From: Blautia sp. Marseille-P3201T
GTDB lineage: Bacteria > Bacillota > Clostridia > Lachnospirales > Lachnospiraceae
DNA: 64,000 nucleotides
Direction of reading: 5' to 3'
Assembly: GCF_900120295.1 (NCBI RefSeq)
Contig: NZ_LT635470.1
Location: 496,001-560,000 of the forward strand
The position numbers were made by a program, and so were the translations under genes. The notes under the pieces are model-generated. The model did no database searches. It had not been told where the DNA came from and worked only from the letters and a program-made list of their open reading frames with translations. Numbering within the stretch: position 1 is the first letter of the stretch; the number at the start of each line of letters is the position of its first letter. Shown piece by piece: positions 25,626 through 29,516 of the stretch.

Positions 25626-26513
25626 ATGTATAAAATTCTAAAAGCAGAAAAGCTTAATGAGATTGTATATCTCATGGTTGTAGAAGCACCTATGGTTGCA
25701 AAACATTGTCAGCCAGGCCAGTTTATCATCGTAAAATTAGATGATGCAGGAGAAAGAATTCCCCTGACAATTTGTGATTACGACAGAGAGGCAGGAACTG
25801 TAACTATTGTATTCCAGCCAATCGGAGCATCCACAGAAAAATTCGCAAAATTACAGACAGGAGATGCTTTTGAAGACTTTGTTGGTCCTTTAGGATGTCC
25901 ATCTGAATTTGTAAATGAAGATATTGAAGAATTAAAGAAAGAAAAAATTCTTTTTGTAGCCGGCGGAGTAGGTACTGCACCTGTTTATCCTCAGGTAAAA
26001 TGGCTTCATGAGCATGGTATTGATGCTGACGTTATTGTAGGAGCAAAAACAAAAGATTTAGTTATTCTTGAAAAAGAAATGGAAGCTGTGGCAGGAAATC
26101 TGTATGTTACAACAGATGACGGCTCTTACGGACGCAGCGGTATGGTAACAAAAGTTATTGACGATTTAGTTGCAGAAGGCAAAACTTATACAAGATGTGT
26201 TGCTATCGGTCCTATGATTATGATGAAATTCTGCTGCCTTACAACAAAGAAATATGATATTCCAACTATTGTATCCATGAACCCGATTATGGTTGACGGA
26301 ACAGGTATGTGTGGAGCATGTCGTGTAATCGTTGGCGGTGAAGTTAAATTCGCATGTGTAGATGGTCCTGAATTTGACGGTCATTTAATCGATTGGGATT
26401 TAGCTATGAAGAGACAGCAGATGTATAAAACAGAAGAAGGCCGTGCGTTATTAAAAGAGCGTGAAGGCGATACACATCATGGTGGATGTGGAAACTGCGG
26501 AGGTGACGAATAA
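25626..26513 (+). CDS. NfnA-type FAD/[2Fe-2S] subunit (sulfide/dihydroorotate dehydrogenase-like)
   Basis: A 295-aa subunit with a ferredoxin-reductase fold: FAD motif ERIPLTICDYD, NAD motif LFVAGGVGTAPVYPQVKWL, and a C-terminal iron-sulfur site in GMCGACRVIVGGEVKFACVDG. With the next gene it matches the electron-bifurcating NADH-dependent ferredoxin:NADP+ oxidoreductase (Nfn), which balances NADH, NADPH and ferredoxin in anaerobes. The ATG at 25626 follows GAGGAGG; the upstream open stretch is not family-like. It shares one base with the next gene (TAATG). Confidence 0.9.
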   Translation: MYKILKAEKLNEIVYLMVVEAPMVAKHCQPGQFIIVKLDDAGERIPLTICDYDREAGTVTIVFQPIGASTEKFAKLQTGDAFEDFVGPLGCPSEFVNEDIEELKKEKILFVAGGVGTAPVYPQVKWLHEHGIDADVIVGAKTKDLVILEKEMEAVAGNLYVTTDDGSYGRSGMVTKVIDDLVAEGKTYTRCVAIGPMIMMKFCCLTTKKYDIPTIVSMNPIMVDGTGMCGACRVIVGGEVKFACVDGPEFDGHLIDWDLAMKRQQMYKTEEGRALLKEREGDTHHGGCGNCGGDE

Positions 26514-27907
26514 TGGGTAACGTATTAGAAAAAGTTCCTGTAAGAGAACAGGATCCTCAGGTAAGAGCAACAAATTTTGAAGAAGTTTGTCTTGGATATA
26601 ATAAAGAAGAAGCTATGGAAGAAGCAGCTCGCTGCTTAAACTGTAAAAATGCAAAATGTGTAAAAGGATGTCCGGTATCTATTAACATTCCTGCATTTAT
26701 CCATGAAGTAAAAGAAGGAAACTTCGAAGAAGCATACAAAATCATTGGTCAGTCCAGTGCACTTCCTGCTGTATGTGGCCGTGTATGTCCTCAGGAATCA
26801 CAGTGTGAAGGCGTATGTATCAGAGGCATTAAGGGAGAAGCTGTTTCTATTGGTAAGCTGGAACGTTTCGTTGCAGACTGGGCAAAAGAAAATGGCATTA
26901 AACCAGAAGCTCCTGCTGAGAAAAACGGACATAAAGTAGCTGTAATCGGTTCCGGTCCTTCCGGACTTACCTGTGCCGGTGATTTGGCAAAAATGGGCTA
27001 TGATGTAACTATTTTTGAAGCATTGCATCAGGCAGGTGGTGTACTGGTATATGGTATTCCGGAATTCCGTCTTCCAAAAGATAAAGTTGTAAAAGAAGAA
27101 GTAGAAAACGTAAAATCTTTAGGTGTTAAAATTGAAACAAATGTTATTATCGGTAAATCTACTACGGTAGATGAATTACTGGAAAATGAAGGCTTTGAAG
27201 CTGTATTCATCGGTTCTGGTGCAGGTCTTCCAATGTTTATGGGAATTCCTGGTGAAGTATCTAACGGTGTATTTTCCGCAAACGAATATTTAACAAGAAG
27301 TAATCTGATGAAAGCTTTCCGTGAAGATTACGATACTCCGATTGTAACAGGTAAGAAAGTAGTCGTAGTAGGCGGCGGTAACGTTGCTATGGATGCTGCC
27401 AGAACAGCTCTTCGTCTTGGAGCAGAAGTACATGTTGTATATAGAAGAAGTGAAGAAGAACTTCCTGCAAGAAAAGAAGAAGTACATCATGCAAAAGAAG
27501 AAGGTATTATTTTTGATCTTCTGACAAACCCAGTAGAAATTTTGGCTGATGAAAATGGCTGGGTAAAAGGTGTTAAATGTGTTCGTATGGAACTTGGTGA
27601 ACCGGATGCATCAGGAAGAAGACGTCCTGTAGTTATTGATGGTTCTGAATTTGAAATGGAAGCAGATACGGTTATCATGTCTCTGGGAACTTCTCCAAAC
27701 CCGTTGATTTCTTCTACAACAGTAGGACTTGACATCAACAGAAGAAAATGTATTATCGCAGATGAAGAAAATGGTAAAACATCTAAAGAAGGTGTTTATG
27801 CCGGCGGTGATGCTGTAACAGGCGCAGCTACTGTTATTCTGGCTATGGGTGCAGGTAAAGCAGCAGCAAAAGGTATTGATGAATTCATTAAAAATAAAGC
27901 AAAATAA
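26513..27907 (+). CDS. gltA: NfnB / GltA-type NADPH-dependent oxidoreductase subunit
   Basis: A 464-aa flavoprotein related to the small subunit of glutamate synthase. Residues 1-130 bind two [4Fe-4S] clusters (CLNCKNAKCVKGCPV and CGRVCPQESQCEGVC). Then follow the FAD motif GSGPSGLTCAGDLAKMG and the NADPH motif VVGGGNVAMDAARTALRLG. Databases name it homotetrameric NADPH-dependent glutamate synthase, but its pairing with the upstream subunit, joined as TAATG, makes the Nfn bifurcating complex more likely. Confidence 0.92.
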   Translation: MGNVLEKVPVREQDPQVRATNFEEVCLGYNKEEAMEEAARCLNCKNAKCVKGCPVSINIPAFIHEVKEGNFEEAYKIIGQSSALPAVCGRVCPQESQCEGVCIRGIKGEAVSIGKLERFVADWAKENGIKPEAPAEKNGHKVAVIGSGPSGLTCAGDLAKMGYDVTIFEALHQAGGVLVYGIPEFRLPKDKVVKEEVENVKSLGVKIETNVIIGKSTTVDELLENEGFEAVFIGSGAGLPMFMGIPGEVSNGVFSANEYLTRSNLMKAFREDYDTPIVTGKKVVVVGGGNVAMDAARTALRLGAEVHVVYRRSEEELPARKEEVHHAKEEGIIFDLLTNPVEILADENGWVKGVKCVRMELGEPDASGRRRPVVIDGSEFEMEADTVIMSLGTSPNPLISSTTVGLDINRRKCIIADEENGKTSKEGVYAGGDAVTGAATVILAMGAGKAAAKGIDEFIKNKAK

Positions 27908-27940
27908 AATCGGAAAATAGTTATGCTATTTCGGTTTCAG

Positions 27941-27970
27941 AAAAGGTCCGTACAAAATGCGGGCCTTTTC
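27941..27970 (+). terminator. Intrinsic terminator of the nfnAB operon
   Basis: AAAAGGTCCG (27941-27950) pairs with CGGGCCTTTT (27960-27969) across a 9-base loop, with one G-U pair. A shorter GAAAATAG/CTATTTC hairpin precedes it. Confidence 0.8.
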
Positions 27971-27983
27971 GTATAAATATTTT

Positions 27984-28270
27984 AATATCAAAAGATATAT
28001 AAATAAAATTTTGCAGAAATAAATACTTTATTTTGATATATTCCAGCTATTCTATGGGTAAACAGTCCACTTTCTTGTTTTTCTTCGCCGCTTACAGATA
28101 CCTTGTCCGTCAAACTCGTGCGAAAGCACTCAAACACGACTCCCAAGGTATCGCTATGCTGGAAAAACTACGTCAGTGTTCCAATCGTTTGCCCATAGAA
28201 TACTGAATTTCATCCAATAGGATGTGTGTATTTCTGCAAAATTTTACTTCATATATATCTTTTGATATTA
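27984..28270. repeat. 287-bp palindromic element with long terminal inverted repeats (MITE-like)
   Basis: The left end (27984-28021) and right end (28270 back to about 28229) are inverted copies: 19 bases identical, a short indel, then 18 bases identical. Inside are three further nested pairs: 28048-28063 with 28187-28202 (16 bp, one wobble), GATACCTTG 28097-28105 with CAAGGTATC 28144-28152, and a GTGC-GAAA-GCAC hairpin at 28118-28129. A CATCC-AATA-GGATG hairpin lies at 28211-28224. The whole could fold as one long rod. It fills the gap between gltA and the alkD-like gene. No target-site duplication was obvious. No transposase is present. Confidence 0.8.
28054..28206 (+). CDS. Possible 50-aa ORF inside the palindromic element
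   Basis: ATG to TGA, 50 codons, starting MGKQSTFLFFFAAYRYLVRQ, with a hydrophobic N-terminal part and a basic remainder. The ATG lies in the left arm of the inner 16-bp repeat, and the stop lies just after the matching right arm. There is no ribosome binding site before the ATG, so translation is doubtful and the ORF may be a by-product of the repeat. Confidence 0.25.
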   Translation: MGKQSTFLFFFAAYRYLVRQTRAKALKHDSQGIAMLEKLRQCSNRLPIEY

Positions 28271-28298
28271 GAATGTAATAATTAAAATGGAGAAAAGA

Positions 28299-28991
28299 AT
28301 GTCAGATATTACGCAATGGATAAGAAATGAGTTGTATGAAAACAGTGAGGAAGGTTATAAGGAGTTCCAGAGTTCTCTTGTTCCCGGTGTTTCTAATATT
28401 TTAGGTGTGCGGGTTCCGAAGCTGAGAGAGATTGCGAAAAAGGCGGCAAAAGGAGATTGCAGGGAATTTATTGAAAATGTTGATATACAGATTTACGAGG
28501 AACTGATGTTATGGGGAATGATTTTAGGCTATGCAAAGCTTTCAACAGAAGAAAGGAAAAAGGAGCTTGAGAAATTTATTCCTCACATCAATAATTGGGC
28601 AATTTGCGACTGCAGTTGTGCTACTTATAAATTTATGCGGGATTTTCCAAAGGAATGGCTGTCTTTTCTTAAATCTTATTTATGCAGCACGCAAGAATAT
28701 GAAATACGTTTTGCTGTGGTATGTCTTTTAGACTTTTTTATTAATGAAGCTTATATAGAAGAGGTACTGGATTTATTATTGAAGGTTCATCATGAAGGAT
28801 ATTATGTAAAAATGGCAGTTGCGTGGGCAATTTCTGTATGCTATGTAAAATTTCCTGAAAAAACAGAAGAAATTTTTGCGAAAAACCTTTTAGATGATTT
28901 TACTCATAATAAATCCATTCAAAAAATTCGAGAGTCTTATCGTGTACCGAAGGAAAGCAAAGAACGTTTACAGAAAATGAGGAGAAAATAG
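28299..28991 (+). CDS. DNA alkylation repair protein, AlkD-like
   Basis: A 230-aa all-helical HEAT-like repeat protein of the AlkC/AlkD glycosylase superfamily, which excises alkylated bases without base flipping. Recognisable stretches are GVRVPKLREIAKKAAK, INNWAICDCSCATYKF (the conserved NWA-D region with the catalytic aspartate candidate) and YYVKMAVAWAISVCYVKFP. The ATG at 28299 follows GGAG by six bases; the in-frame ATG at 28287 has none. Its TAG abuts the next ATG directly. Confidence 0.88.
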   Translation: MSDITQWIRNELYENSEEGYKEFQSSLVPGVSNILGVRVPKLREIAKKAAKGDCREFIENVDIQIYEELMLWGMILGYAKLSTEERKKELEKFIPHINNWAICDCSCATYKFMRDFPKEWLSFLKSYLCSTQEYEIRFAVVCLLDFFINEAYIEEVLDLLLKVHHEGYYVKMAVAWAISVCYVKFPEKTEEIFAKNLLDDFTHNKSIQKIRESYRVPKESKERLQKMRRK

Positions 28992-29516
28992 ATGAAAGCA
29001 GGAAAAGGCGATAAAGTTAAAATTGTAAAGAAAATGAATGATTGGTCCTCCGATTATCAGGAGGGTGATATTTTTACTGTGGAAAGCACTTGGTATGGTG
29101 GCATCAATGTAACCAGCAGTACAGGGATACCTTTATCTATTGATGAAATAGAGTATGAAATTATAGGAAAAGAACCGGCTTCCCAGCCAAAGGGTAAAGT
29201 GATTTTTCATGCAGAAGATAAGCAGGGGTTGGAAAGAGCAGAACAATATGCTCAAAAGCTTTGTGAGGAAAATGCAGTATGCAATATAGAAATTTTAGCA
29301 GTAAATCAGGCAGTAAAAGGGCTTTTGTCATCTGAAGAGAATCAAAGAACTTTCGAGCTTCATGCAAAAGGCGTGAAATTTTTTGCGTGTGAAACTTCTA
29401 TGAAGGAATTAGAGCTTACAAATGCAGAGCTGGTATCTTTGGCAACAACAGTTCCTTTTGGTATTTTGACACTTGTAGAAAAACAAGAAGAAGGATATGC
29501 CTATATACGTGTTTAG
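28992..29516 (+). CDS. SH3-like plus DsrE-like two-domain protein
   Basis: A 174-aa protein. Residues 1-58 resemble an SH3/KOW-type beta barrel ([20 protein letters not shown]). Residues 66-174 resemble the DsrE/DsrF fold, with [19 protein letters not shown] and, later, [20 protein letters not shown] carrying the conserved cysteine region. DsrE-like proteins handle sulfur or act in unknown roles. It is translationally adjacent to alkD and followed after 11 bases by rlmH. Function not established. Confidence 0.6.

Follow-up and report, generated by a model that had tools for sequence, protein, structure and literature searches.

The palindrome at 27979-28274 of the window (the whole stretch of 64,000 nucleotides that was analysed) is probably a non-autonomous, MITE-like palindromic transposable element. 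A non-autonomous mobile element had been proposed in the first-pass annotation, and the idea is upheld by about ten dispersed copies in the same genome, an empty orthologous site in a sister species (G008) and target-site duplications in some relatives. That annotation had named a single copy, no relative with an empty site and no compensatory base changes as outcomes that would speak against it; the element proved to be multi-copy, an empty site exists and compensatory changes are very many. Several features of MITEs are found here, namely terminal inverted repeats, a short non-coding sequence, dispersed copies and an empty site.

A nested palindrome that folds as a single rod

The element (27979-28274, 296 bp) is non-coding, with no open reading frame (ORF) of at least 100 amino acids within it, and is almost perfectly self-complementary. 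It had been recognised earlier as a palindrome of 287 bp at 27984-28270; the palindrome stands, but its coordinates required correction as the outermost inverted repeat (I2) closes at 27979/28274. The outermost arms consist of 23 nt at 27979-28001 (+ strand), 96% complementary to 28252-28274 (− strand), and are followed inward by middle arms of 35 nt (28001-28035, + strand, 80% complementary to 28215-28249, − strand), the left of which carries TTTTGCAGAAATA, a block that by eye has a similar form in some other copies of the same genome. Further inward lie a 16-bp helix (28048-28063, + strand, 94% complementary to 28187-28202, − strand), an additional helix GTTTTTC/GAAAAAC and a 9-bp helix, the inverted repeat formed by GATACCTTG (28097-28105, + strand) and CAAGGTATC (28144-28152, − strand), whose two sides covary in 54 copies (helix 4). 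At the apex is the tip motif AACTCGTGC-GAAA-GCACTCAAACA (28113-28136, + strand), which recurs in distant groups with compensating stem changes and which includes the innermost of the nested pairs, the hairpin GTGC-GAAA-GCAC (28118-28129). The conserved core (28058-28192, + strand) scores 145.6 bits with our covariance model R1, this copy being itself among the 12 used in building the model.

All four of the nested inverted-repeat pairs noted previously were found by an inverted-repeat search. When folded as RNA, the region 27984-28270 reached −98.5 kcal/mol on the + strand (shuffles −44.9, sd 4.7, z = −11.3) and −104.4 kcal/mol on the − strand (shuffles −54.3, sd 4.4, z = −11.5), and none of 200 dinucleotide shuffles matched its stability on either strand. 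The palindrome is real, and its folding into a single rod, as had been suggested, is beyond chance. In a scan of 27880-28320, promoter-like sites numbered two, where 2.4 would be expected; a single terminator-like site, at 28211-28224 within the element, compares with an expectation of 0.1.

An empty site in a sister species

The element lies, as first annotated, between a terminator and an alkD-like gene. The upstream ORF (26513-27907, 464 aa) is by eye similar to the glutamate synthase small subunit and is followed by a terminator-like hairpin at 27940-27970 (+ strand, inverted repeat I14), which is conserved in G008 and was not flagged in the terminator scan of 27880-28320. Downstream is a gene of the AlkD-like DNA alkylation repair family (28287-28991, + strand, start at 28287 or 28299; PF08713, E 2.4e-15). 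The C-terminal part of its product also matches DUF6164 (PF19661) at a borderline 27.3 bits, the cut-off being 27.

A comparison with relatives, which the first-pass annotation had asked for, was made with a 2.1-kb query spanning the locus against 20 genomes of the genus, with 15 candidates scored per genome. In the sister species G008 the orthologous site is empty: window positions 27100-27978 and 28285-29200 (query segments 1-879 and 1186-2101) are contiguous in G008:C1, where they adjoin with a 4-bp overlap. The stretch between the two matches (27979-28284, 306 bp) is absent from that site, and the 4-bp overlap brings the net difference in length to 310 bp. The element thus arrived as a single unit of about 300 bp, which separates the upstream terminator-like hairpin from the start region of the alkD-like gene. 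The locus query matched 19 of the 20 genomes, the element's own included, and gave no match in G002; in none of the 18 other matching genomes of the genus was there a match over the element at the orthologous place, and in G003 the two flanking matches are separated by a gap of 71 bp. On these alignments, a gain in the window's lineage after its split from G008 would be the simplest account. The approximately 10 bp at the right of 27979-28284 may be a target duplication or a change in the flank. The left flank GTATAAAT (27971-27978) and GTAATAATTAAAAT on the right possibly represent a target-site duplication; they do not match cleanly.

Copies in the genome and across the family

Searching the element's own genome (G000, 2.94 Mb) with blastn, as the annotation had also recommended, returned nine matches, these being the query, its own reverse complement and seven further places with 75-83% identity over 104-169 bp. 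The tip pattern with up to 2 mismatches occurs at 11 places in this genome and adds a full copy (L047) and a half copy (L040) to the blastn set; with one weak 2-mismatch hit excluded, the total is about ten dispersed copies, one of them half, and the element is not single-copy. As the best matches to the window copy are only 75-83% identical, no close source copy was found in its own genome. Among 60 other genomes, blastn gave seven matches in G008, which is of the same genus (one of only 29 bp), and only short matches of 27-43 bp in four more. Three of the ten G000 copies share their sites with three of the six G008 copies that were compared (L003/L016, L005/L015, and L006/L019).

Model R1 (135 positions, 32 pairs) was built from 12 copies of G000 and G008. 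At E ≤ 0.001 it matched 24 of 397 genomes of the family, and 21 of the 320 of good quality, the element's own genome being included in both counts; at most 8 candidates per genome were scored, under stricter filters, and copy numbers are lower bounds. In one of these genomes, G290, three copies score equally, with 97-100% identity to one of their number, and a fourth has 91% identity. Of the 44 core copies at loci with listed ORFs (≥110 aa), 40 are clear of any ORF, and the overlaps of the remainder are 7 bp (L010), 71 bp (L139), 56 bp (L140), and 136 bp (L147). The same core is dispersed in the window's family, mostly between ORFs.

Terminal sequences differ between copies of one genome, and the tip and core are conserved where the ends diverge, which agrees with the earlier remark that the internal pairs are more than a simple MITE needs. 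Of the 54 aligned family copies, 40 retain the strict tip, AACTCG...CTC[AG][AG]ACA, and the other 14 have variants or other apices. A different apex, e.g., GCGGGATGACAGGTTTGCACCCG, replaces the AACTC...TCAAACA tip in L178-L182 (G278), L151, and L155. One copy in the own genome, L009 (1521-1673; G000:C9, ~35888), has a 3′ half that resembles the reversed 5′ half of another copy, L002, at 77% (six other copies, 58-69%), as though an inverted copy had taken the place of one arm. A first impression that L009 is an inverted copy of its own 5′ half was not borne out, its two halves matching at only 60%.

Covariation and pairing of the arms

The covariation analysis proposed in the first-pass annotation was performed on 54 family copies, aligned by fitting to R1, which favours structure. 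Of 1676 cells, 94.7% are paired; double changes occur in 30 of the 32 pairs, and there are 459 double-change cells against 13 one-sided ones. Slid controls reached at most 51.3% paired and 82 double-change cells, and of 500 shuffles none equalled the observed figure for four of the five measures, while four did so for the fifth.

The scarcity of wobbles is the more telling result. The cells comprise 1572 Watson-Crick, 15 G-T, 35 A-C (which on the opposite strand is a wobble), and 54 others. Depending on the strand, wobbles therefore make up 0.9% or 2.2% of pairs, as compared with 6.4% in tRNAs (G-T in 25 of 392 marked pairs of 18 tRNAs from the fetched loci and the window). Arms are also alike within a copy where copies differ: in G330, which has eight copies, the outer 24-nt arms agree at 87% within a copy and at 62% between copies (shuffled 55%), and the core agrees at 86% between copies. 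Arm complementarity that persists despite divergence, with few wobbles, suggests homogenisation at the level of DNA rather than a selected RNA. Selection on RNA should leave wobbles, which the copying of arm onto arm in a DNA hairpin would not.

The first-pass annotation had offered as its second reading a structured RNA dispersed in the genome. Such a reading would make the copies genes or regulatory cassettes of a non-coding RNA, or cis-acting RNA hairpins, with pairing selected in the transcript, and it would sit well with the very strong covariation and with the conservation of the unpaired loops that surround the tip. As RNA, 91 of 102 copies fold better on the strand reading TGTTTGAG...CGAGTTT, which is perhaps due to G-A stacking in the tip loop, and wobbles lean to the same strand, 35 to 15 in the family core and 91 to 12 in G066, an incomplete 1.7-Mb Desulfobacterales bin. 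However, with a no-wobble fold the strand counts in the window's family are 45 and 39 and the bias vanishes, and in G066 two columns give about half of the wobble count, the lean by column being 25 to 13. Given also the proportion of wobbles relative to tRNAs, the presence and absence of the element at orthologous sites and the target duplications in relatives, we consider a selected RNA unlikely, and the covariation, being almost wholly Watson-Crick, lends that part of the annotation no support. Nor was there a match to a known structured RNA in Rfam 15, for which the best score in the window region was 15.9 bits against 55 needed, with no matches in 20 loci.

The apical tip in distant groups

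The apical motif AACTC-G[variable stem]C-TCAAACA also occurs in long hairpins of bins labelled Deltaproteobacteria, Cyanobacteria, and Chitinophagaceae; for contigs outside the window's family these labels are those of the record titles. The pattern AAACTCGTGCNNNNGCACTCNRACA was found in 18 stretches in species-representative contigs, 13 of which are in bins titled Deltaproteobacteria (10), Desulfobacterales (2), or Syntrophaceae (1), the others being two in a single Cyanobacteria bin, two in goat-gut bacteria and one in a Chitinophagaceae. In 13 of 17 loci measured (L038 was not among them) at least 40 Watson-Crick pairs enclose the tip, and there are fewer in L023, L027, L035, and L036, of which L035 is cut by the end of its contig. 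By eye, the stems of tip-bearing loci from other groups are unlike those of the window's family, and in several of these copies the next helix has GGCTAAA to its left and CTTAACGCC to its right. R1 matches 19 of 27 such loci at E ≤ 1, with 19 to 36.5 bits, matches which are not independent evidence as the loci were chosen by their tip. In L130, L084, L105, L033, and L024 a second strong hairpin, of the kind CTTTCTT...AAGAAAG, was seen by eye shortly before the tip-bearing hairpin.

We also searched with a pattern that leaves the stem free, AACTCG N2-24 CTCAAACA, using the pattern read backwards as control. G066 has 49 such places against 1 for the control, and their stems (GGC/GCC, GAC/GTC, GTGC/GCAC, and others) are compensating. 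Counts in seven other genomes range from 1 to 6 places, the control giving 0 to 2, and in G064 the tip reads GTGC-TTT-GCAC. Across the Bacteroidota, the phylum of G065, the bare tip pattern is present in 43 of 148 genomes, which is about the level of the backwards control and represents no general enrichment; among 67 listed hits, a tip stem of at least three pairs occurs in 7 (2.0 expected), concentrated in few genomes. In viral contigs the GTGC-type tip was absent and a CTNCG-type tip was found in six, within an extended palindrome in four (L130, L131, L132, and L134) and lacking one in L133 and L135. The window core had no match in plasmids and phages, and three other element queries gave weak partial matches to plasmids and, in addition, one match to a Bacteroides plasmid that covers 34% of a query.

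Target duplications and terminal repeats

Transposition is clearest in the Desulfobacterales copies. Of the 49 tip places in G066, 41 were read, of which 30 were kept and 11 dropped, the requirements being both terminal repeats (near CGTAAAAAG) 171-177 bp apart, at least 16 flanking bases and a distinct sequence. Of the 30 copies, 16 have a perfect 6-bp target duplication just outside the GA...TC ends, whereas 5000 permutation runs gave a mean of 0.92 and at most 5. Twenty different forms of the 8 bp outside CGTAAAAAG occur, and the two ends of the same copy are identical in 20 of 30 (2.6 expected, maximum 8); mismatches total 14, where 60.6 would be expected.

Elements that have the same terminal repeats and no tip bear a perfect duplication at six of nine loci (L242, L243, L246, L248, L250, and L251), match at five of six bases in L245 and L247 and at three of six in L244. 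The tip is therefore dispensable for movement in the genomes labelled Deltaproteobacteria. Four of these tip-less elements, in G061 (L246, L248, L250, and L251), have unlike ends and yet perfect duplications, so that end identity is not a necessary outcome of transposition. The terminal repeats GANNNNNTCGTAAAAAGTC have 150 exact hits in G066 and 135 in G061. They also enclose different palindromes (GTCATTCCCG... and GTCATTTCGAGCG...) that by eye are like CGTC-type REPs (L243, L246, L247, L248, L250, and L251), five of these six loci having a perfect 6-bp duplication. In one case (L249 62-533; G066:C45) a complete UPF0047 gene (PF01894, E 7e-45) lies between facing terminal repeats of the hairpin element, and its flanking hexamers match at only three of six bases.

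Within the window's family, two of the four G290 copies have direct repeats at their ends, TATGAAAATT (10 bp) and AATGATAAGCA (11 bp). A wider test took 65 loci, of which 9 with no recognisable tip were dropped; among the 56 left (some duplicated under two ids), direct repeats of at least 9 bp near the ends were found in 14, as against 36 of 280 mismatched pairings, a modest excess. G290 also has seven dispersed mini-palindromes of 59-115 bp (e.g., L293, L285, and G290:C2:93938-93996), each made of two facing CANGACAAACGCATGAAT-type repeats and co-occurring with the four tip-bearing copies in that genome.

Search for a mobiliser

The observation in the first-pass annotation that the element has no transposase holds at the window copy, and near other copies none was found among the 25 most frequent of 141 protein families (106 of 110 listed flanking ORFs scanned), which are host-like. 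An autonomous partner was sought in G290, in one pair of terminal repeats in G061 and in the scanned flanking ORFs. In G290, a scan for terminal repeats returned 49, and many of them form facing pairs 59-246 bp apart; there was no autonomous copy within the facing 2.8-kb pair of G061, nor an autonomous partner in a 1.6-kb mini-palindrome pair and a 3.1-kb facing pair of G290, all of which enclose genes that are host-like by eye. Terminal repeats shared with an autonomous element, a further feature of MITEs, were thus not found in this partial search, which did not cover the element's own genome. As no autonomous partner was found, we refer to the element as MITE-like and not as a member of a named IS-derived family.

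Profile searches for Y1_Tnp (PF01797) and PF05635 were conducted on eight whole genomes. The former bear on whether the tip could be a REP- or REPIN-like short hairpin unit, central in longer palindromes and moved by an HUH tyrosine transposase (RAYT). Y1_Tnp genes occur in six of the eight, and a short conserved hairpin with unrelated flanking stems across bacterial groups is in keeping with such a unit, as is the precedent of GTAG and CGTC REP dimers inside long palindromes, the CGTC type being said to lack a dedicated transposase (in the available part of PMC3733652). Nevertheless, there was no Y1_Tnp match in the window's genome or in the incomplete bin G066 with its 49 motif hits, and no complete tip motif within ~1.5 kb of any of 30 Y1_Tnp matches, although half motifs are near some. 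The hairpin foot reads AACTCG...CTC[AG][AG]ACA in 40 of 54 copies and has no GTAG or CGTC tag, and the family core is conserved well beyond the tip. Target duplications were found here, whereas IS200/IS605-type elements are not known to leave any. On balance, we regard movement of the tip by a RAYT as rather improbable. A link to the 23S rRNA intervening sequence (PF05635) was rejected, there being no match in G000 or G008 and no motif near 20 matches in the other six genomes.

It is highly improbable that the palindrome is an old, vertically inherited one that was lost in relatives and whose copies are decayed remnants devoid of present mobility, for while three of ten G000 copies share places with three of the six compared in G008 and most G000 copies are only 75-83% like the window copy, the empty G008 site and the lack of a match in the other matching genus genomes would require many losses, and the near-identical G290 copies and perfect G066 duplications also speak against it.

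Relation to known elements

Bacterial MITEs, which include RUP, NEMIS, ERIC, YPAL, Bcr1, Nezha, and EFAR (available part of PMC3733652), resemble the present element in being 70-300 bp, non-coding, mostly intergenic, hairpin-forming and bounded by inverted repeats, with duplications in some relatives. The present element differs in that its ends vary by copy while core and tip are conserved, its arms covary, its tip motif is common to distant groups and a partial search found no parental IS. The nearest structural precedent is that of REP dimers inside long palindromes: in the GTAG and CGTC REPs of that partly available source, as here, a small hairpin unit is placed mid-palindrome and found in several phyla, in the CGTC case with no known dedicated transposase. 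The present element, by contrast, has neither tag, is not near the Y1_Tnp genes examined and, as the empty site shows, is inserted as a whole palindrome.

The MITE in hupL of Candidatus Thiomargarita nelsonii is described in the available part of PMC4853749 as having 10-bp direct repeats that flank its inverted repeats, no parental IS in ISfinder and a wide dispersal. Direct repeats of about 10 bp (in G290), the failure to find a parental IS and wide dispersal are also features seen here, a likeness drawn from descriptions only. The same source links the hupL MITE to PD-(D/E)XK (YhgA-like) genes, a precedent which suggests that PD-(D/E)XK may be a candidate mobiliser family for the present elements. 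Template switching between imperfect inverted repeats is described as making arms alike (PMC7202029, PMC3820800, and PMC8604942, available in part), and the quasipalindromes so formed would share with our element arms made alike by DNA synthesis across a hairpin; in the parts of those sources available they are described as a mutation process and not as a mobile-element family.

None of six 17-base tip strings was found in the published literature searched, a result that reflects absence from those searches and is no proof that such a description does not exist. Among the papers listed for shorter tip, terminal-repeat and REP-like strings only AACTCGTGC was matched, in papers that look unrelated by title, and the literature found on MITEs in Lachnospiraceae was unrelated as judged by title and start of abstract. 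The tip is not described in the available portions of the REP, REPIN and MITE literature examined (PMC3733652, PMC4853749).

Proposed mechanism and implications

If the element is MITE-like, a transposase acting in trans would move it as DNA, by cut-and-paste or by copying; the gene for this transposase may lie elsewhere in the genome or on another replicon, or may have been lost. During lagging-strand replication or transposition the element would fold into a hairpin or cruciform, and one arm could then be copied onto the other or repaired against it, via template switching or mismatch repair. Changes would in this way arise on both arms at once, with no G-U intermediates, while the large asymmetric internal loops of the core would survive. 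Most likely the conserved tip would be an apex that a structure-specific protein recognises, or one with a protective role for the hairpin, and this is the weakest step of the proposal. Several observations sit less easily with a MITE-like element. Unlike terminal sequences within one genome are unusual for a transposase that reads terminal repeats, neither a transposase nor an autonomous copy turned up in the partial search, the flanks of the window copy do not form a clean duplication, no close source copy was seen in its own genome, and the lean of the wobbles is also expected from selection on RNA.

We raise tentatively, as a possibility short of even odds, that there is a cross-phylum class of mobile DNA hairpins defined by the apical motif AACTC-G[any stem]C-TCAAACA, with unrelated ends and with duplications of differing length (6 bp in the Desulfobacterales bin, ~10 bp in G290). 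The motif could serve as an apex that can be passed between elements and is recognised by a conserved structure-specific protein, and whenever an element moves or replicates it could go through a single strand that folds, one arm serving as template for the other.

If arm copying does occur, these elements would preserve a natural record, from living bacteria, of DNA hairpins in which one arm was copied onto the other, and compensatory base changes would be able to arise at the DNA level with no selection on RNA. This would carry a warning, as a covariation test alone would call these elements a strong RNA family. A tip common to distant groups, in elements whose ends differ, would also point to a factor that recognises hairpins. 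For the window's genome the practical meaning is probably modest, the insertion having shifted alkD by ~300 bp from the upstream gene.
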